Below are positions 1 through 64,000 of a stretch of 64,000 nucleotides of DNA, one piece after another. The DNA is taken from IMG/VR virus record IMGVR_UViG_3300042502_001732, positions 62,001 to 126,000 of that record; one strand, 5' to 3'. The notes under the pieces are model-generated. The model was not told where the DNA came from. It saw only the letters and a list, made by a program, of their open reading frames with translations, and did not search any database. Every line of letters begins with the position of its first letter. Positions within the stretch are counted from its first letter, which is position 1. The position numbers and the translations under genes are program-made. Source of the DNA: a virus.

Positions 1-581
1 GCCCAGTAAGTTCAGACGGTCGTTGGACTGCAGAGCGTAATATCACTTTCTATCAAAAGCTACTCATCGAAGCTGGTCGTATGGCCGCTCGTAACCGTAG
101 AGGCGCTGCTAACTTTGTTATCGCAACTCCTCGCGTTTGCACCATCCTTGAAATGCTTCCTGACTTCAAGACATTTGAAATCACTGGAAACGTTACAACC
201 GCTGGTGTCGGAGTATCCAAGGTAGGAACTGTAGGAAGCCGCTTCACAGTATATCGTGATACACGTACCGAAGTACAAAATCAAACTCTCTATTCACCGA
301 ACTACTATCGCAATAGTCCAAATTCTGGACAAGGCGTTGAGTATGCTCTTCTTGGATATAAGGGTTCTGAGTACTACGACACTGGTATCATCTATTGTCC
401 TTACATTCCGATCATGGTTCAAAGAACCATCGGACCAAATGATTTCGCTCCTCGCGTTGGTCTCATGACCCGTTATGGAATCGTTAATAATATCTTTGGT
501 GCGAATCTTTATTACCATCTGATCATTGTTAAAGGTCTTGGTGCAGCATTTACTCCTGGTACAGTTTCCACATACTTATAA
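1..581 (+). CDS. 23: Major capsid protein, gp23-like, C-terminal part
   Basis: The reading frame is open from the window edge (first full codon at 3), so the start lies outside. The last about 190 residues match the end of T4 gp23: a KGSEYYDTGIIYCPYIPI block, then a block ending in TRYGIV. In T4 this protein forms the hexameric head lattice after prohead proteolysis. The stop is followed by a clean terminator, so this ends a late transcript. The family call is firm; the N-terminus cannot be judged. Confidence 0.93.
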   Translation, partial: PVSSDGRWTAERNITFYQKLLIEAGRMAARNRRGAANFVIATPRVCTILEMLPDFKTFEITGNVTTAGVGVSKVGTVGSRFTVYRDTRTEVQNQTLYSPNYYRNSPNSGQGVEYALLGYKGSEYYDTGIIYCPYIPIMVQRTIGPNDFAPRVGLMTRYGIVNNIFGANLYYHLIIVKGLGAAFTPGTVSTYL

Positions 582-15947: not shown

Positions 15948-16328
15948 GTGAATAGCAAATATATAGAATTAATTGATAGCGTGTATTCCTCTATTTTAGA
16001 GGAAAAAAACGATAATTCATCTATCGATGAATTTATCAAAATACGATCAAACGGAGCTAAAAAAATTGAAAAACAAGCCAAAGAAAAAGGCGGAGCTTCG
16101 ATATTAACAGCGATTCATTTTAAAGCAAAAGAAATTCCATATGAACATTGCTTAGAAAATTCAGAAGATATAAAATCTATAGAAAAAAAAGCAGATCTTG
16201 TTTTTAATAAACTTAAAAATTGGAAAAATTTATCACAAAGACAATTTCAAGCTTTGATGGGTGAACTTGAAGCTTATGGTGAAATTTATATAAAAATTAA
16301 AAAGCCAAACAGTATAAATTTAAATTAA
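15948..16328 (+). CDS. Hypothetical tagged protein
   Basis: 126 residues from a GTG five bases after a late box. N-terminus MNSKYIELIDSVYSSILEE matches the shared tag and contains LEE. The body has NGAKKIEKQAKEKGGASIL and TAIHFKAKEIPY, a segment I recall from T4-like phages without assigned function. Convergent with 16329. Confidence 0.72.
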   Translation: MNSKYIELIDSVYSSILEEKNDNSSIDEFIKIRSNGAKKIEKQAKEKGGASILTAIHFKAKEIPYEHCLENSEDIKSIEKKADLVFNKLKNWKNLSQRQFQALMGELEAYGEIYIKIKKPNSINLN

Positions 16329-16977: not shown

Positions 16978-16985
16978 TAAAAATG

Positions 16986-16992
16986 ATAAATA
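16986..16992 (+). promoter_or_regulatory. Late promoter ATAAATA
   Basis: Late box five bases before the ATG at 16998; the ATG at 16983 would sit upstream of it, so 16998 is the better start. Confidence 0.6.
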
Positions 16993-16997
16993 TAAAT

Positions 16998-18239
16998 ATG
17001 AGCTTTTACGAATTTTACAATTCCATCATAAATGAAAATTTAGTTCTCAAAAAAAGACCAATACAATTAGATGATGGTTCAACTGTATACGAATTTATAG
17101 TTGATAGTGATATTGAAAATCCCAGAGATAAAAGCAACGAAACATATAAAAATAAAGATAACATAAAAAAAGCTGGGTTCGTGTGGAATAAAAATATTGG
17201 AAAGTGGACAAGTTCTGAAAAATTTTCTTTAGAAAATTTACAACAAGGAATTGCAAAATATAAAAGAGCCATTTTATCAATAAACAAAGATTTTAATGCC
17301 GTCGGATTTGATGATTATGCTGACGACCTTGAAGAATTTTTAGATCTTGGAATAACTGATAAACTTAAAGAATTCTTCACAGAATTAAAAGAAAAAATTA
17401 AAAATGCAAAAGATTCCCCAGAAGTTAAAGCGTTTTTTGAATTTAGAAAAAATTTCACCAATAGAAGTTTTAATAATCAAATGCTTATATTCATGCAGAA
17501 TAGAAAAGCAACTCATGTAGAAGGCAAAAAAACATGGGAAACGAAATTTGGAAGAAGACTCAAACTTGGAGCAAAATCAATTAAAATTTTTGTTCCTATC
17601 ATATCTAAAGATAAAAAGAATGAAGATGCTCCACAAGCTGATATGAAAGTTGATGAAACTCAACAATTAAAAGGATTTACAATTGGCAATGTATATGATA
17701 TATCAGATACTGTACCAATAGAAGGCAAGGAACATATGTATGTACAAGAACCAAAATGGTACGATGATGCAACCCCAGATGAAAAAACTAGATATCTTTA
17801 TGATGCTCTTGTTAAATTTGCCGAAGAACATAATGTTCAAGTATCTATAAGTGATGAGGGATTAGGCGGAGCTAGAGGAGTCAGCAGAGCAGGATCAATA
17901 CAATTGATGCAAGAAAACATATCAACAATGATTCATGAATTAACTCATGAAATTTTACACCCCGCTGATAAAAGAAAAGAATTATCAAGTGAAATAAAAG
18001 AATTACAAGCGGAAGGTGTAACATATCTAGTATTGAAACATTATGGTCTTCCTACATCACACGCTGAAATATATCTAGCTCTTTGGGAAAAAGATCCAGA
18101 AAATGTAAAACAAAATGAAGAAATAATAAGAGACACTGCTAAAATGTTTATTGAATATATTGACAATGCTACTATGAATTCTTCAGAAGAATCTCCCGTT
18201 CAGGAATCTTATATAAACAGCTTGAAAGCAATGTGGTAA
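16998..18239 (+). CDS. ArdC-like antirestriction protein with capsid tag
   Basis: 413 residues. Residues 1-15 (MSFYEFYNSIINENL) form the shared tag with INE as a possible cleavage site. Residues about 130-200 match the ArdC N-terminal ssDNA-binding domain: FFEFRKNFTNRSFNNQMLIF, MQNRKATHVEGKKTW, LKLGAKSIKIFVPI. The C-terminal part has the zinc-protease motif TMIHELTHEILH and a distal Glu (ELQAEGVTYLV). ArdC protects incoming DNA from restriction. Packaging it in the head would deliver it with the genome, as T4 does with IPI. Confidence 0.8.
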   Translation: MSFYEFYNSIINENLVLKKRPIQLDDGSTVYEFIVDSDIENPRDKSNETYKNKDNIKKAGFVWNKNIGKWTSSEKFSLENLQQGIAKYKRAILSINKDFNAVGFDDYADDLEEFLDLGITDKLKEFFTELKEKIKNAKDSPEVKAFFEFRKNFTNRSFNNQMLIFMQNRKATHVEGKKTWETKFGRRLKLGAKSIKIFVPIISKDKKNEDAPQADMKVDETQQLKGFTIGNVYDISDTVPIEGKEHMYVQEPKWYDDATPDEKTRYLYDALVKFAEEHNVQVSISDEGLGGARGVSRAGSIQLMQENISTMIHELTHEILHPADKRKELSSEIKELQAEGVTYLVLKHYGLPTSHAEIYLALWEKDPENVKQNEEIIRDTAKMFIEYIDNATMNSSEESPVQESYINSLKAMW

Positions 18240-18240
18240 T

Positions 18241-19077
18241 ATGAAAAGCTTTGAAAATTTTTACGAAAACTATACAAACGAGTCCGAATTAAATGAAGGA
18301 TTCAAAGAGAATTTAATAAATTCATTACTGGCATTGTTTAGTATGGGAGCCGCTGTTTATGAAGGAAATTATGTTCTTAATTTCTTAAACAATCAACCAG
18401 CCCCAATGGAACAAAAAATCGATGCTTTAAATCAAGTAAAAGACCAAACAGACAATATAAAGATTAAAAAAGCCGTTGATGATGCCATTCAAAAAATAAA
18501 TCAACCAGCTCAAAAAGTAAAAGAAAACATCACTGGGGAAAAATCTAAAATATTAGATCTCGCTGTAAAACTTACATTGCCAAGTGAAATATTAGGAACC
18601 AATATATATGATAAAGTGAACGATAGTTTTATGAGACCATATCTTGATGACAAAGGATATTGGACGATTGGGGTTGGTCATTTATTAGGTAGCGAAGCTA
18701 AGAAAAATTTTTGGATACAAAATAGAGCAAAGCAAGGAAAATCAGCCACTTTATCAAGACCAGAGGCGCTGGCTCAATTTAAACAAGATCTTGAAAAACA
18801 TCATAATCTAGCACAAAAGAAATTCCAAAAGGAATGGCATAAATTTCCAAATGAACTCAAAGCGGTGTTAGTAGACATATCATTCAGAGGAGATCTTGAG
18901 AAAAAAGGATTAGGTGATTTCGCATTCGTTGAACTTTTAAAACAAGGAAAATATAAACAAGCAGCGAAAGAATATTTGGATCACACTGAATATAAATCAA
19001 GAATGAAAAAGGATAAACCAGACGGTGTTGTGAAAAGAATGAACAGAAACGCTGCTATTATATCAAAAACGACATAA
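18241..19077 (+). CDS. Lysozyme-like (GH24-type) protein with capsid tag
   Basis: 278 residues. Tag MKSFENFYENYTNESELNE, where LNE could be a prohead-protease site, then a hydrophobic segment (about 25-45) and a charged linker. From about 105 a T4-lysozyme-like fold: DSFMRPYLDDKGYWTIGVGH aligns with the Asp and Thr of T4 lysozyme. The catalytic Glu position reads Asn-Asp, so activity is uncertain. The later FPNELKAVLVDISFRGD also fits the family. It may aid DNA entry rather than lysis. Confidence 0.72.
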   Translation: MKSFENFYENYTNESELNEGFKENLINSLLALFSMGAAVYEGNYVLNFLNNQPAPMEQKIDALNQVKDQTDNIKIKKAVDDAIQKINQPAQKVKENITGEKSKILDLAVKLTLPSEILGTNIYDKVNDSFMRPYLDDKGYWTIGVGHLLGSEAKKNFWIQNRAKQGKSATLSRPEALAQFKQDLEKHHNLAQKKFQKEWHKFPNELKAVLVDISFRGDLEKKGLGDFAFVELLKQGKYKQAAKEYLDHTEYKSRMKKDKPDGVVKRMNRNAAIISKTT

Positions 19078-19963: not shown

Positions 19964-22027
19964 ATGCGCAAAGATTTTTCAGAATTGTCATTTTTATATG
20001 AAAATGTTCTTATAAATGAAATATCTCAAAAATATGTGGATGTTATAAAAAAAGCTGCCAATGACCATGTGTTACCATTTGAAAATGTTTTTAACAATAA
20101 GTTGAGGATTATACTTCCCATCAAGGGAACTGAAACATACAATGCTATTTTAAATGATATTTCAAAAATAAAAGATTTTGATCGTTTCGATCCAGAAAAA
20201 AAAGAGGTCGTTAGAAAAATAAAACTCGATCCAAAATATGGCGGGGGAGAGAAAGAACAAAAAATAAACTTGGGAAGAGCGATCAATTCTTTAAAAATTG
20301 ATCCAGAAACAAAAAAGAAATATTTAAATTGGTTTGCCAATTACGAATCCAACATACCAGAAATGAATGATCTTAAAAGATTTTCTGTGGTTGTTTCAAG
20401 AAGTCCAATTGATGTGTTGAGAATGTCTGATATCAGCGATATAGAATCATGTCATAGTCAAGGCGGTGCGTATTTTCAATGTGCGATTCAAGAAGCTATA
20501 ACAGGCGGGGCTGTGGCTTATGTTGTACACACCAGAGATCTTAAAAAATTATCAGACGATGAGTTTCAAAATGAAGAAATATTCGAAGACAAAGAAAGAA
20601 ACGTCAAAGGAATCGGCGTATGGTCTAGATTAAGAATAAGAAGATACGAAATAGAAGAAAACAACAATGATATCGGGATTCCAGAAGTCAGAATCTATGG
20701 TCGAAAAATACCAGGATTTTATGACACTGTGAAAAACTTTTTAACAAAATCTCAACAATACAGCGTTGATAATCTTTATAAATTATATAAAAATAAACAA
20801 CTTAAAAAAACTGGTGGCTCTTATTCAGATTCCAGCGATAGTCAATTATTCAATAGAATGTACGACACTGATGTTTTTTATGGAAGCATTCGTCACGAAG
20901 ACAATGATGAAAATGCGGGTAGAGAAGCGCAATTCGAAGAAGAATTAGCAGGATTTCAAAACCGTTTCGAGTTTGAACATTGTAATGCGGGTTATAGTAT
21001 TGATGGAGATGATGATTATGTTTATTATACAGCGTGGGGAGCAATCAATATAGATCTTGGAGAATATCAAGTGATTGATGATTTTGTAGAATTTGACAGC
21101 GAGTATGAGATAAGCCAATTAAAAAAATACAACAAAGATTCTCAACACCAATGGGAAAGATCACTGCCATATAATTTTAAAAACAGAAACCAAGAATCCT
21201 CAATAAACACTTATAAAAATTTCCTAACAGATTTTGAACAATACGATAGCACATCTTTCGTAGAAGACTCGTTGGCTTCGATAAGCATAAAAAGAAATTA
21301 CAATGAAAAAACGGGAAATTGGGAAAAAAATCATTCATCAATGTCGCTGGGAATATTATTCAACAACGAAGAAAGCACAGACGACACTGACGAGTATCTC
21401 TCTTTCTTGAGAGAGGTTGACAACATAGATGGAAACTACGAATCAATCAAAAAAGCATTATTAAAAGCTTTATTGAAAAACGGTTTGATAAAATCAGGAC
21501 CAGATATGGAAAAATATACCACCATATCAAAAGAAAAAGAATTTGTAGAAGATATAAAGAACTTTGAATTTGATACGTCAGAAGACGCATTAACAACTGA
21601 TATATTTTTGGGAAGATACACAGAGCTATCAAAAGATGTTGCTTACGCAAACATCAGCATGATATTTGGAGAAGCACTTGAAAAATATCTAGACACGTAT
21701 TACAAATCACCGCAAATCAATACACAGCAAACCACATTTGATAAGTTTTTTGAAAACCACTACAACGAAACGCTTGTTAATAAGTATGGAATAGAAAATA
21801 TCAAATGCAGATACACCACCCAAGCATTCAACACCGAATTATACAACATGAGTTTGGAAATAAAATTCGAAGCATTGAACAGCAAAACCGCGCCAATTAT
21901 CAAATTCCTAAATGATCACTATGATGATATAACCAACATAGCCAAAATGTTTTTCTTAAAACTCGCCAAAATAGAAAACCAGGACACCAAAAGATTACAA
22001 CAGGTGTATGGTAAGTTATTACAATAA
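19964..22027 (+). CDS. Large tagged protein with SCHS motif, function unknown
   Basis: 687 residues. Tag MRKDFSELSFLYENVLINEI (INE possible cleavage). Residues about 140-185 read VVVSRSPIDVLRMSDISDIE, then SCHSQGGAYFQCAIQEA and GGAVAYVV, a Cys/His motif I recall from other large T4-like phages without a known function. The rest is acidic, with repeated Asp/Tyr-rich stretches. Probably packaged in the head. It converges with 22028. Confidence 0.72.
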   Translation: MRKDFSELSFLYENVLINEISQKYVDVIKKAANDHVLPFENVFNNKLRIILPIKGTETYNAILNDISKIKDFDRFDPEKKEVVRKIKLDPKYGGGEKEQKINLGRAINSLKIDPETKKKYLNWFANYESNIPEMNDLKRFSVVVSRSPIDVLRMSDISDIESCHSQGGAYFQCAIQEAITGGAVAYVVHTRDLKKLSDDEFQNEEIFEDKERNVKGIGVWSRLRIRRYEIEENNNDIGIPEVRIYGRKIPGFYDTVKNFLTKSQQYSVDNLYKLYKNKQLKKTGGSYSDSSDSQLFNRMYDTDVFYGSIRHEDNDENAGREAQFEEELAGFQNRFEFEHCNAGYSIDGDDDYVYYTAWGAINIDLGEYQVIDDFVEFDSEYEISQLKKYNKDSQHQWERSLPYNFKNRNQESSINTYKNFLTDFEQYDSTSFVEDSLASISIKRNYNEKTGNWEKNHSSMSLGILFNNEESTDDTDEYLSFLREVDNIDGNYESIKKALLKALLKNGLIKSGPDMEKYTTISKEKEFVEDIKNFEFDTSEDALTTDIFLGRYTELSKDVAYANISMIFGEALEKYLDTYYKSPQINTQQTTFDKFFENHYNETLVNKYGIENIKCRYTTQAFNTELYNMSLEIKFEALNSKTAPIIKFLNDHYDDITNIAKMFFLKLAKIENQDTKRLQQVYGKLLQ

Positions 22028-22952: not shown

Positions 22953-23348
22953 ATGAAAAACAGAGATCAACTATTATTGACAAATATATATACAAGTTCT
23001 GTTTTGTCAGAAAGTATAACAGCAGCTGTTAAAAAAATTTCAATTGAAAACCTTTTACCAGATAAAGATAACATGGAAGTGGCTGTTGATTCTCTAAGAA
23101 AAGGCATGCGCAGTTCTGATAATAATCCTATATCGGTTTATAAAAATAAAAATAAATATATAGTAGCAGACGGACATCATCGCTTGTTGCAATCCATAAT
23201 CAACGGCGATGAATCCATCAACGCAAAAATCCTTCACTCAGACACACCAGTATCCACAACAGGAACAATCAAATTAGACTTATTCGACGGCGATTACTAT
23301 GGACTGGATTCATCTCTAGAAAACGGATGGTTAATAAAAAGACTATGA
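22953..23348 (+). CDS. ParB-like nuclease-fold protein with capsid tag
   Basis: 131 residues. Tag MKNRDQLLLTNIYTSSVLSE (LSE possible cleavage). NPISVYKNKNKYIVADGHHR followed by LLQSIINGDESINAKIL is the ParB/Srx nuclease fold (GHHR). Such domains bind or cut DNA or hydrolyse CTP. Its stop overlaps the next ATG (ATGA). Confidence 0.75.
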   Translation: MKNRDQLLLTNIYTSSVLSESITAAVKKISIENLLPDKDNMEVAVDSLRKGMRSSDNNPISVYKNKNKYIVADGHHRLLQSIINGDESINAKILHSDTPVSTTGTIKLDLFDGDYYGLDSSLENGWLIKRL

Positions 23349-24199
23349 AAAACGAAGACAGATATTTTTTAGAAGAACTCTATACAGAAATGGCATTGTC
23401 CAATCTACAAACGATTGGCAAATGGCAAGACGATAAAAATAGACACGGATATGACAAAGCATCAGTAGGAATACTATCATCTCCCGCAGGATTAAAAAAA
23501 TTAGAAGACACATTCAACAAAATAGGAGGATGGGACTTTAATCTATATTTCGTAAAATTACCAAACGCATGGAAACAAAGCGAAATGGGACTGGTTGATA
23601 TCAACAACCTACCACAATTAATCAAAGTCGAAGCGGGAAAAGATTTCCCCATGCCAACAGACAGCGAAATAACAATCATATTCACAAACAACGCAGCGGC
23701 AGAAAAAGTACCATTAACACCATGGACAATAGCACACAGAATAGGACATTCTTTCGCAGCAACATTCAGAAGAGGAAACGATAAATCTATACAACACTAT
23801 GATAACGAAATATCAAATATATTAAAAAAATTATTAATGTGTTATAATATAAAACCAGAAGGAAATCTGTTATACTCCCAAGCTTATTATATAAGAGATC
23901 TATTTCAAAAAATAGGAAAGTTCCGTAGTGCTAGAATGGGTAAATTAAATCGCCCAGCAGAATTCTATCACGAAGCGTTCTCGTATTGGTTATTACACGA
24001 TGGAGAACTAAACTTCAATGATCCCCCACAATCACTGATAGACAGCAACAAACAAGCATGGGGAACACCAGTGGGTATGAATTATAGATTACAAGATGCA
24101 GAAACAGCAGAAGACTTATTATATCAATTAAAATATGAATTAGAAGAGAAATTCAATTATATGATAGGAAGACACATCGGCACAACGTCGATTATGTGA
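23345..24199 (+). CDS. Metallopeptidase-like tagged protein
   Basis: 284 residues from the ATG at 23345, coupled by ATGA to the ParB-like gene; an ATG at 23327 is less likely. Tag MKNEDRYFLEELYTEMALSN. TPWTIAHRIGHSFAATF resembles a zinc-peptidase helix but reads HRIGH, so the catalytic Glu of HExxH is replaced. A later AEFYHEAFSYWLLHDG supplies His/Glu. It could be an inactive or divergent protease. Last gene before the tandem repeats. Confidence 0.62.
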   Translation: MKNEDRYFLEELYTEMALSNLQTIGKWQDDKNRHGYDKASVGILSSPAGLKKLEDTFNKIGGWDFNLYFVKLPNAWKQSEMGLVDINNLPQLIKVEAGKDFPMPTDSEITIIFTNNAAAEKVPLTPWTIAHRIGHSFAATFRRGNDKSIQHYDNEISNILKKLLMCYNIKPEGNLLYSQAYYIRDLFQKIGKFRSARMGKLNRPAEFYHEAFSYWLLHDGELNFNDPPQSLIDSNKQAWGTPVGMNYRLQDAETAEDLLYQLKYELEEKFNYMIGRHIGTTSIM

Positions 24200-58747: not shown

Positions 58748-59074
58748 TGGTGGATGTGTGGAGGATCGAACTCCAGTCCATGACTTCTCGGCAATATACT
58801 TCTACAATTTATTGATTGATGTTAGGACAATCACAACCTAGATTGTTGTCGAGCAATCCCGCATCAATATTCGAATCGATGAGTCTATTATATTTTCGAT
58901 ATACAACTATCCGACCCTACTCTGTACCAACGCATGTTATCGGAGTTGATGCGTTGGTGCGGTTATGCCGCGAGAGCTAGTGTATCTTTTTCGTTTTTCT
59001 CTTGCACTTAGAGTCGTGCAGACTGTGCATTGCATATATTGCTTCAAATGTCATGTCGAAACCATGTCACACCC
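58748..59074 (-). ncRNA. ssrA: tmRNA (one-piece)
   Basis: 327 bases. 5' GGGTGTG pairs with CACATCC before ACCA (7 bp, one G-T); the T arm is TGGAG-TTCGATC-CTCCA, and the 5' D-like region reads GGTTTCGACATG as in bacterial tmRNA. The tag reading frame 59007-58963 ends in Leu-Ala-Leu-Ala-Ala and TAA. It should rescue stalled ribosomes and tag their products. No SmpB gene is seen here, so host SmpB would be used. Confidence 0.88.
58963..59007 (-). other. tmRNA proteolysis tag reading frame
   Basis: Codons GTG CAA GAG AAA ... to TAA give (V)QEKNEKDTLALAA. The ending LALAA matches tags read by ClpXP-type proteases. The codon before GTG is TAA, so the resume codon is GTG or the next one. Confidence 0.8.
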
Positions 59075-59076
59075 GT

Positions 59077-59266
59077 TTAAGTTATTATTTTATTTATCTC
59101 ATTATGTATATTATCATCTAGACCTCCCCATGACCAATATTGTTTACAAACAGTTGGTACATCACTAGGATACATCCAAGTAAACGCATCTTGCATGAAA
59201 TTTACGTGCCAATTGACCAAGTGTATTAAATTCACTAATACGAACAAGTCTCAATCTTGGCATCAT
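59077..59266 (-). pseudogene. Chimeric remnant: uvsE start fused to glycosyltransferase end
   Basis: Begins ATGATGCCAAGATTGAGA (MMPRLRLVRISE, compare uvsE MTPRLGLVCISE), runs into EFNTLGQLARKF and, after one frameshift, QDAFTWMYPSDVPTVCKQYW, matching the end of 59954-60637. A full promoter precedes it. A deletion-type recombination remnant. Confidence 0.8.
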
Positions 59267-59271
59267 GATGT

Positions 59272-59300
59272 ATTATACACCAAATCTACTTATTTGTACA
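59272..59300 (-). promoter_or_regulatory. Sigma70-type promoter upstream of the chimeric remnant
   Basis: TGTACA, 17 bases, TATAAT; five bases to the remnant ATG. It may now serve the tmRNA downstream. Confidence 0.78.
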
Positions 59301-59303
59301 CAA

Positions 59304-59957
59304 CTATTGTGATCGTACTAAATTCAACAATTGTGTTTTATTATGCAACCCTACTGTAAAATTTGCATGAAATGCTAAGGCATCACTATCTAAAACAAAA
59401 TGCGGAGAATCTGGACTCCAAAGGCCGAGTTCTAGATTGCCATATGTCGTAAATTTGAGACTAAGTGGAATATATTTTAAACCTGAATGCGGTAACATCT
59501 CATTTATTACAGTTTGGTCACATTCCTTTGCTGCATAATATTCTTTATTACAAATGAGAGCTTCTTTTACATTATTAAAAAAGTTAATAGTTTCAGGACA
59601 TACCCGACATACAAAAAGTCCGGCACATAATGCGTTTTTGCTATCTTGTTGAAATGCAATATGAGAGTCTCCAAGTTCTTCTAACATTGTAGTTACTATG
59701 TTGCCTCTTACGCATATATCACTATCTAGATATATGAGTGCATCACCATATTGCAAAGCCTCAAGTTCAGTGATAATATGGTGTGTTTTATTATAACATG
59801 CATTAAAAAATGCCTCACTTTGAAAGTCTCCTTCGCAACTATTATCAAGATATGCAATCTTACATTCATGTTTGCAATGTAACAAAATTTCATTATAAAG
59901 CTTTTCAGTAAAGTTTTGATGACGAGCCGAACAAACTGTTAAAAGCAAAACTTTCAT
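59304..59957 (-). CDS. Nucleotide-sugar transferase (GT-A type)
   Basis: 217 residues. LLTVCSARHQNFTEKLYNEI, then ALIYLDSDICVRG (DXD site), CAGLFVCRVCPETINFF and DALAFHANFTVGLHNKT fit the nucleotide-diphospho-sugar transferase group (PF03407-like). Coupled to the next gene by ATGA-type overlap. Confidence 0.72.
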   Translation of the reverse strand: MKVLLLTVCSARHQNFTEKLYNEILLHCKHECKIAYLDNSCEGDFQSEAFFNACYNKTHHIITELEALQYGDALIYLDSDICVRGNIVTTMLEELGDSHIAFQQDSKNALCAGLFVCRVCPETINFFNNVKEALICNKEYYAAKECDQTVINEMLPHSGLKYIPLSLKFTTYGNLELGLWSPDSPHFVLDSDALAFHANFTVGLHNKTQLLNLVRSQ

Positions 59958-61316: not shown

Positions 61317-62129
61317 ATGCTCATACACACATACTTTGCAAAAGAAAGGGGGATGGGATTGGGTGATTTTATACGAGGGTCAATCGCGGCAAATCAACTA
61401 TGCGTGGAATATAGTATACCATTTGAAATTGATTTTAGGCAGCACCCAATTGGTCAATATTTACAAAATCAATGTTCGGTTACACCTCCAAATACAAATA
61501 AAATTTTAGATTTACAAGACATTCAAAATGCCACTCTACGGGCACTACAAACCAATCTTAAAAATCAAATAAATCTAAAAAATTTACGGCGGGATAATTT
61601 ACATATTTACACAAATGTATGGCCAGTATTTAAACTACCAAGGCGAATAGTAGAGTCTGTTAGAAAATATTTGCAACCAACTGAAGAGTGTGAACGCGCA
61701 ATAGTTGCTGCATTAGATTCGTTGACAGATTATGAAGTTATTCATGTTCGCGTCGGTGACATACTTTCATTTGGCACTCAAATAGGAGACACTGTTGACT
61801 ATACAATGGAACAACTTATTGATAGGTTATCTGTTGTAAAAACTATACAAGATTCTACTACACGTCCATGCATAATAATGTCAGACTCGGCTGAATGTAA
61901 GCGCATCTTAGCAGAAAAATATGGTTTGAGATGCACTTCTACGGTTCCAAGTCATATGGCACTTGAAAATGATTCTGCGCTTGACACACTAGTAGATTTT
62001 TTTATCCTATCACGAGCACGACATATACATCAGTTTAGTGTGCATCATTGGGGCTCAGGATTTAGTGACTCAGTACACTGGCTCTATCGAGTGCCAATTA
62101 CAAAACATAAGCTATCTCCCACAAACTAA
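61317..62129 (+). CDS. Fucosyltransferase-like protein (GT-B)
   Basis: 270 residues. GMGLGDFIRGSIAANQLCVE at the start, VIHVRVGDILSFG in the middle (sugar-nucleotide Arg) and LVDFFILSRARHIHQFSVHH then WGSGFSD near the end follow the order of GT11/O-fucosyltransferase-type enzymes. Only distantly like 11949-12788. Last 18 bases overlap the convergent gene. Confidence 0.65.
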   Translation: MLIHTYFAKERGMGLGDFIRGSIAANQLCVEYSIPFEIDFRQHPIGQYLQNQCSVTPPNTNKILDLQDIQNATLRALQTNLKNQINLKNLRRDNLHIYTNVWPVFKLPRRIVESVRKYLQPTEECERAIVAALDSLTDYEVIHVRVGDILSFGTQIGDTVDYTMEQLIDRLSVVKTIQDSTTRPCIIMSDSAECKRILAEKYGLRCTSTVPSHMALENDSALDTLVDFFILSRARHIHQFSVHHWGSGFSDSVHWLYRVPITKHKLSPTN

Positions 62130-62791: not shown

Positions 62792-64000
62792 TTAGTGTAT
62801 CAATGCAAGATGTGTGACTTTGTCGTATAGATGGGGCACAACATACCATTGCTCTGCATCAGATATATCTTTTGGAGATTCGAGTGCACCAATCTCAAGA
62901 AGATCTGTTCCCCATGCAACTGATACTGCTTTCCACTCGCTGCCTAATTTCATGTGTGACATAAGTTTGCTGCTAGAGATTCGATCAAAATCAGTCTTTG
63001 CAAGCAGTTTATATGGGTCGAGTTGATAGAGTTCGCGGTCTTGAATAAAGAAGATATATTTTCCTTTTACTGGAGTAATTTTAGCGGCTTCTTCGAGAGA
63101 CTCGCCTTCTACTTCTATGTTTTCCAGGCGAACTGGACGCTTTGCATAGGCATCAGCTGCTGTAGAAATATGATCTGCTACAGTTTTCCATGCATTTGCA
63201 TTTGACTTTCCATCTTTTCCTGCTTGTGACATATTAGCGATGCCTTGCGCGTTGTCTGCGAGTGCCTGTAAGAAAACTAGATAGTCTTTAGGGCTTAGCA
63301 TATCAATTGATGTTATAAGCTTTTGTACAGCTGGTGTTGGAACAGCTTCTTCGAGTGTCTCTTCCTCCTTAACAAGATTTTTATAGACTCCACCTGGACC
63401 AGACAATTTGCTGCCGGCTGGACGATATTTACCAAGTTTATACTTTTTATTATAGTCATCGCGACTCATAGTTCCAGCATTTACTCGGGCCATGTCAACT
63501 TGCTTGCGGCGCTTGAGTGCCGCATCTGCTGCTTCATCCATCTTTTCATCGGGGCAATCAGACTCTTCTTTGTATGTGCCGACATGAGGAAGTTTTGGCT
63601 CTTTGATGCCCTTTGACTTTTGCTTGAGATATTCTTCAGCGTGATCCTTTGCCTCTTGAGGTGCATTGTATCTAACCGCACTTTGGTATATAACTCTTTT
63701 AGTTTTCTTATCAATAATTGTCGGACGATATCCGCCAAACTGACTCTTTTCTGAAGTTGGGAGATAGTCACCAAGCCAGTTGATTGCTTCATCAATTGTT
63801 TTTTCTTCAATGCTCTCTTCTTCTTTATAGACTGGATTGCTTTTCTGAGATTTGTTGAGGTCTGGATAATACTTGCGCACTGCTTCAATTGCTTTTTTAG
63901 CAATTTCTTTTGTCTTTTTAGCACCATTTGGTTGCATAATTTCAAACCACATATCTTCAACATAGTCATAAATCTTTGGAAAACGATCAAAGATGTCTTC
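62792..64000 (-). CDS. Large acidic protein, possible head-internal polyprotein (partial)
   Basis: The C-terminal 402 residues; the frame is open to the window edge. Regions of charged, low-complexity sequence carry repeated SIEEKTIDEA, EETLEEAV and ESLEEAA boxes, each with (I/L)xE sites like those cut by the T4 prohead protease. Between them are KYKLGKYRPAGSKLSGPGGV and a helical block (LSPKDYLVFLQALADNAQGI). The C-terminal part looks globular (GKYIFFIQDRELYQLDPYKL). Function unknown. Confidence 0.65.
   Translation of the reverse strand, partial: EDIFDRFPKIYDYVEDMWFEIMQPNGAKKTKEIAKKAIEAVRKYYPDLNKSQKSNPVYKEEESIEEKTIDEAINWLGDYLPTSEKSQFGGYRPTIIDKKTKRVIYQSAVRYNAPQEAKDHAEEYLKQKSKGIKEPKLPHVGTYKEESDCPDEKMDEAADAALKRRKQVDMARVNAGTMSRDDYNKKYKLGKYRPAGSKLSGPGGVYKNLVKEEETLEEAVPTPAVQKLITSIDMLSPKDYLVFLQALADNAQGIANMSQAGKDGKSNANAWKTVADHISTAADAYAKRPVRLENIEVEGESLEEAAKITPVKGKYIFFIQDRELYQLDPYKLLAKTDFDRISSSKLMSHMKLGSEWKAVSVAWGTDLLEIGALESPKDISDAEQWYVVPHLYDKVTHLALIH

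Follow-up and report, generated by a model that had tools for sequence, protein, structure and literature searches.

The gene at 16998–18239 (plus strand) of the window, the 64,000-nucleotide stretch analysed here (positions 62001–126000 of the 143,932-base virus record), is an intact 413-residue open reading frame; the phage is of T4 type and comes from an environmental sample. The ORF, its homologues, a family profile and a predicted model together identify it as an ArdC-like gene with a candidate leader of the kind that targets proteins to the T4 head. The best explanation, to which we give a probability of roughly 0.58, is that its product is packaged in the head, co-injected with the DNA and shields the genome early in infection. 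The separate parts of this reading differ in strength. From its sequence, and by analogy with T4, the protein is probably packaged and processed; if it is packaged, a role in counter-defence is likely; and that this role is specifically antirestriction, as analogy with plasmid ArdC would suggest, has overall a little less than an even chance.

The ATG at 16998 is the better start codon, because it is shared by relatives; an alternative in-frame ATG lies five codons upstream, at 16983. Four further public viral contigs have copies of the gene that are identical or 92% identical, and a fifth such contig (G002) carries a relative of 56% identity. The protein comprises, in order, a 13-residue leader ending in INE, an extra domain of ∼80 residues, an ArdC-N domain, a zincin domain and a C-terminal tail following the tripeptide VQE. 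The extra domain (17037–17282, plus strand), which would form residues 14–95 at the N-terminus of the mature protein, is defined by the alignment, with the motif NETYKNKD-IK--GFVW---W, and by the AlphaFold model, in which its pLDDT is about 80–95. In the alignment it is kept in 28 of 28 long relatives and is missing from the short ones; the nine short-form relatives start at or near the ArdC-N domain, without leader or extra domain, and plasmid ArdC likewise has no counterpart to it. An earlier note on this DNA had the ArdC domains following a tag with an INE site; the INE is indeed present, at residues 11–13, but the ArdC domains do not adjoin the tag, since the extra domain intervenes.

The putative DNA-binding ArdC-N-type domain spans residues 119–245 (17352–17732, plus strand) and is assigned from PF08401 matches in the family and a structural match to the Rad4 BHD. 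The zincin metallopeptidase domain spans residues 265–395 (17790–18182, plus strand), with its HELTH motif at residues 313–317 (17934–17948) and the glutamate helix contributing E339, within ELQAEGVTY (codon at 18012–18014). The zinc-ligand histidines H313 and H317, the catalytic E314 and the downstream E339 are all invariant in the alignment of 37 relatives.

Recognition of the protein as ArdC-like depended on its relatives. By itself it gave no ArdC match in single-sequence Pfam, NCBIfam, PADLOC and PDB searches, because it is too divergent; alone it matches a PHROG labelled anti-restriction (E 1.1e-5). The 56% identical relative has a Pfam ArdcN match above the curated cut-off (E 3.4e-5), and distant phage homologues found by tblastn have strong ones. 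ArdcN (PF08401) is matched by 36 of the 37 aligned family members, the exception being the window protein, which is alignable over the whole ArdC-N domain despite its sub-threshold score. A seven-sequence family profile (A2) finds the R388 ArdC chains 6sna and 6i89 with an E-value of about 2e-5 (1.8e-5), covering both domains; profile A3 alone found no PDB sequence.

The AlphaFold model built from 37 sequences has a mean pLDDT of 84.4 and supersedes an earlier, poor run with 3 sequences (pLDDT 51). Foldseek searches with this model against the PDB and BFVD returned nothing at E ≤ 0.001. When the Foldseek candidates were realigned, R388 ArdC ranked first and second, with 6i89 at Z 8.2 over 171 residues and 6sna at Z 8.0 over 187, and the next match had Z 5.7. 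Sequence identity in the structural alignment is about 15%; a difference in the relative orientation of the two domains probably accounts for the high rmsd (16). Other matches are to IrrE (3dte, Z 5.3) and Spartan (6mdw, Z 3.5), and the ArdC-N region matches the Rad4 BHD (2qsg, Z 4.5, rmsd 1.8 across 45 residues); the same set of IrrE, Spartan and Rad4 is reported as the structural neighbours of R388 ArdC (PMC7213743). The earlier note had named a predicted structure unlike ArdC as a possible refutation; the model resembles ArdC, and the proposed N-domain and HELTH domain are borne out by the relatives' Pfam matches, the family profile, the predicted fold and the invariant zinc site. We conclude that, as judged jointly by sequence and predicted model, the window protein is ArdC-like. 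It shares with R388 ArdC an ArdC-N domain followed by an HExxH zincin with its glutamate helix, and differs in being encoded by a phage and in its leader with a predicted gp21 site, its extra domain and its C-terminal tail, all of which are additional.

The strict conservation of the zinc site makes a second reading the main and a serious rival, although we consider it unlikely: the protein would be packaged and injected, but would cleave a host or defence protein in the manner of IrrE or Spartan, or a DNA-bound protein, without shielding the genome from restriction. It would account for the conservation of HExxH and third-ligand Glu in 37 of 37 relatives even though antirestriction by R388 ArdC needs no protease, it is in keeping with IrrE and Spartan among the structural matches of the model, and host targets have been proposed for ArdC-like peptidases in a survey of jumbo phages (PMC7824862); no target is known, however, and Iyer et al. 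(PMC5512222) argue that in proteins of this kind the peptidase domain may have its own carrier as substrate. Within the preferred reading of early genome shielding, proteolysis probably contributes in the phages as well, unlike in R388 ArdC, because the site is invariant.

Internal head proteins guided by a CTS are textbook T4 biology. The leaders of the T4 internal proteins are 10–19 residues long, with CTS residues 4 and 7 serving targeting and residues 8 and 10 cutting; in the T4 record IPII and IPIII have the leader MKTYQEFIAE and IPI starts MKTFKEF. The candidate capsid-targeting leader of the ArdC-like protein, MSFYEFYNSIINE (16998–17036, plus strand), has Tyr at positions 4 and 7, and its INE, after which the cut is predicted, fits a T4-type propeptide ending in L/I-X-E, the cleavage motif of T4 gp21 (PMC9026906). 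Among the 28 long-form relatives, P1 is Glu in 28 and P3 is L, I, V, M or F in 28, while P2 is free. With one sequence taken per 60%-identity cluster, the counts are 17/17 for Glu at P1, where the background frequency is 8.4%, and 17/17 for a hydrophobic P3, where that of LIVMF is 26%. The leader site is conserved beyond chance, although conservation of the boundary Glu could be partly structural, since in the model a β-strand begins right after it. The leaders of the stand-alone long relatives vary in sequence and in length (11–44 residues), and the site immediately precedes a common mature start, which consists of a short residue, [LI]-x-[LVI] and, in most cases, Lys or Gln. When [LIV]xE was crudely counted close to every N-terminus in the record, the enrichment was only slight, and we therefore relied on the family-wide test and on the test of T4 positions chosen a priori.

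Seven fused proteins retain the site at the same ArdC boundary, six with 530–790 and one with about 260 preceding residues. In the six (L036, L038, L039, L047, L051 and L057), the residues ahead of ArdC start with MKKIKITKEQYNR or similar, the boundary reads [LIVM]xE, and a conserved SLNEG-type segment mostly stands before it. An ArdC relative in L027 (2623–4248) has an extra C-terminal module, and the joint, ESFKSFFNRKVLSE followed by NETP, resembles an internal leader with its cleavage site.

A candidate second gp21 site, VQE, precedes the C-terminal tail SYINSLKAMW (18198–18236, plus strand). In about ten tailed relatives a short aromatic tail comes after [LIV]xE, as in IQE-KSFKRFFEKRYKY and VKE-NFDYLFRLFCGL, and T4 Alt is cleaved at both ends (PMC5694885). 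We treat VQE as a candidate only, because the preceding core helix also contains an IDE, which inflates the naive count.

Leaders of the same kind are found on unrelated genes. The gene that follows (18241–19077, plus strand) encodes a lysozyme-domain protein (Phage_lysozyme PF00959, E 1.2e-7) with the leader MKSFENFYENYTNESELNE, which has aromatic residues at positions 4 and 7. In the T4 record the lysozyme gene e adjoins ipIII and ipII; we know of no tag on T4 e. Further leaders are carried by a 687-residue protein that matched no family (19964–22027, plus strand; MRKDFSELSFLYENVLINE), a weakly ParB-like protein (22953–23348, plus strand; phrog_4715 E 6e-4, phrog_3264 E 0.002; MKNRDQLLLTNIYTSSVLSE) and a 126-residue protein (15948–16328, plus strand; MNSKYIELIDSVYSSILEE).

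Positions 4 and 7 were taken from the T4 literature and not from the statistics of G002. In that contig the pattern M-x-x-[FYW]-x-x-[FYW] opens 20 of the 67 ORFs, where 1.1 would be expected (p 1e-19). The enrichment in the window record is modest (10 of 196 ORFs against 3.3 expected, p 0.002), and the matches there include the ArdC-like gene and the next gene. G002 (L112–L114), 55.6 kb in length, resembles an island of head cargo. Part of the data had been seen when the motif of another leader type, [LI]xx[ILAV]Y, was picked; it marks 13 of the 129 ORFs in G003 (p 5e-6) and 11 of the 196 in the window record (p 4e-4). Around the ArdC gene of G003, five genes in near succession, interrupted by one small ORF, bear this type, among them the gene for a 986-residue helicase of SNF2/ResIII type; a similar helicase is encoded near ArdC in G005. 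The likeness of the ArdC leader to those of unrelated proteins of the same phage is seen in the window through the next gene, and is strong in G002 and G003.

Helicases of ∼985 residues (SNF2/ResIII plus Helicase_C) lie beside or near ArdC at L108 11912–14872 and L111 15559–18504 (minus strand), with the leaders MYDKDSIILESLYEVVVE and MSLLEKTLLLDAYNSIYRIQE. In the window record a tagged helicase adjoining ArdC was not found, the one helicase match lying elsewhere in the record. A further leader class, ending in L-x-E, is present on at least six ORFs at 62792–63952 of the window and 124792–134429 of the record (L011), with leaders such as MNNFHYHQDPMYAAATAILTGKTQLQE, MNNFHYNQDPLYAAAAKILGRESLTE, MHKNPLIEAATRILQGKPEDLQE, MQPFDNYKNDSLVSAAATILEGKTSDGCLQE and MNNFTSYKEDPLVSAAAHVLSQEQLSE.

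The machinery that would act on such leaders is encoded in the same record. A gp21-type protease (PF03420, E 2.8e-31) lies at record positions 59063–59554, outside the window. The 3′ part of a major capsid protein gene resembling those of T4-type phages occupies 1–581 (plus strand), and its precursor has CIQE followed by ANTG in the region expected for gp23 maturation, just upstream of the window. Among contigs with tagged ArdC, 8 of 17 encode a gp21-type protease and 8 of 12 a T4-type portal; for contigs with the short, untagged form the count is 0 of 10 in both cases. The absences carry little weight, because many contigs are fragments. The capsid tag put forward in the earlier note is thereby upheld at the level of sequence, as a T4-type leader with a predicted gp21 site conserved in the long relatives and a matching protease in the genome.

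It is improbable, on these data, that the leader is a mere variable N-terminal helix and that the protein acts after its expression inside the cell, like plasmid ArdC. Helical leaders ahead of a strand are common and the tag enrichment in the window record is modest, but such a helix would not be expected to keep P1 Glu and a hydrophobic P3 around a free P2 across 17 clusters, to recur in the same types on unrelated neighbours, or to co-occur with the gp21-type protease and T4-type portal.

For the preferred reading of co-injection and early shielding, the following course of events can be proposed. As in T4, the 13-residue leader would dock the protein in the scaffold core during assembly. 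Cleavage by the gp21-type protease after INE, and possibly also at VQE, would then release the mature protein inside the head, and the protein would enter the host along with the DNA, as the T4 model suggests. There the ArdC-N domain, if it binds as ArdC does, may hold the protein on single-stranded DNA that is entering or has just been exposed, and the genome would be shielded from restriction or another first-minute defence before phage genes are expressed. In T4, each of IPI, IPII and IPIII is injected and inhibits Type IV enzymes (PMC12373910), and early antirestriction by virion delivery therefore has precedent.

Some points count against the preferred reading: neither delivery nor the protease site was required for R388 ArdC to work, and ArdC has a preference for single strands, while the DNA of phages arrives in the cell double-stranded. 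For R388, it was the recipient rather than the donor that had to express ArdC, protease activity was dispensable, and DNA occlusion is proposed (PMC7213743). That plasmid ArdC protects incoming single strands, as the earlier note stated, is accordingly not established, occlusion being the proposal of those authors.

In its processing the ArdC-like protein is most readily compared with T4 IPI, IPII, IPIII and Alt, whose short leaders are removed after L/I-X-E by a head protease of the class that this phage encodes; the aromatic residues at positions 4 and 7 recall the IPs, and the candidate C-terminal site recalls Alt. The mature proteins are unrelated, the IPs being small inhibitors of Type IV (GmrSD) enzymes and Alt an ADP-ribosyltransferase. 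The Dar proteins of P1 (DarA, DarB, DdrB and Hdf) are a virion-carried antirestriction set, and are likened here by role and not by sequence; the DarA precursor is cut by a head protease, and two of the ArdC relatives lie near a tagged SNF2/ResIII-type helicase, but the P1 head system is another one. Of the two precedents cited earlier for this gene, T4 IPI is the closer for delivery; DarA of P1 also has a part in head morphogenesis (PMC12810830). This joining of antirestriction and morphogenesis in DarA, with candidate sites at both ends of the window protein, leaves a very small probability that the leader places the protein in the prohead for its zincin to aid maturation or the self-processing of other cargo, against which stand the untagged ArdC homologues in unrelated phages and on plasmids, the gp21-type proteases that already carry out maturation, and a patchy distribution and fusion to other modules that suggest cargo.

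The same ArdC-N and MPTase domains occur in the polyvalent proteins of Iyer et al. (2017), and the excerpted text of that study predicts that ArdC-type proteins travel with DNA, places ArdC-N mostly in conjugative elements and describes no T4-type leader or gp21 site on ArdC (PMC5512222). ArdC-like peptidases have also been noted in some jumbo phages (PMC7824862). We found no report of an ArdC with a gp21-cleavable leader in the open-access literature, a scope outside which most subscription papers fall.

More tentatively, uncultured T4-type phages may carry a modular, tag-addressed set of injected cargo, comprising ArdC-type zincins, SNF2/ResIII-type helicases, ParB-like and lysozyme-domain proteins and many unknowns, with ArdC either free and tagged or fused behind an internal site; the leader and its L/I-X-E would make the whole set readable from sequence. 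The roles of most injected phage proteins are unknown. If leader and site do mark head cargo in these phages, a broad antirestriction family known mainly from plasmids would also be delivered ready-made in virions, and dozens of neighbouring unknown genes would become testable candidates for injected counter-defence.

Some other features of the window concern its context. T4 late-promoter boxes (TATAAATA) are not enriched in the analysed sequence (11 against 8.1 expected), and the box at 16991, which runs into the start codon, is probably a chance occurrence. Near window position 24000 the GC content, about 30% up to there, increases to about 40%, and beyond this point the ORFs are short and mostly on the minus strand. 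A chimeric join at this position was considered and rejected, as the same junction occurs at 100% identity in two other assemblies; the protease and the ArdC-like gene both lie on its low-GC side. Directly after the capsid gene, at 704–2254, is a gene of homing-endonuclease type (phrog_3339, E 5e-107).
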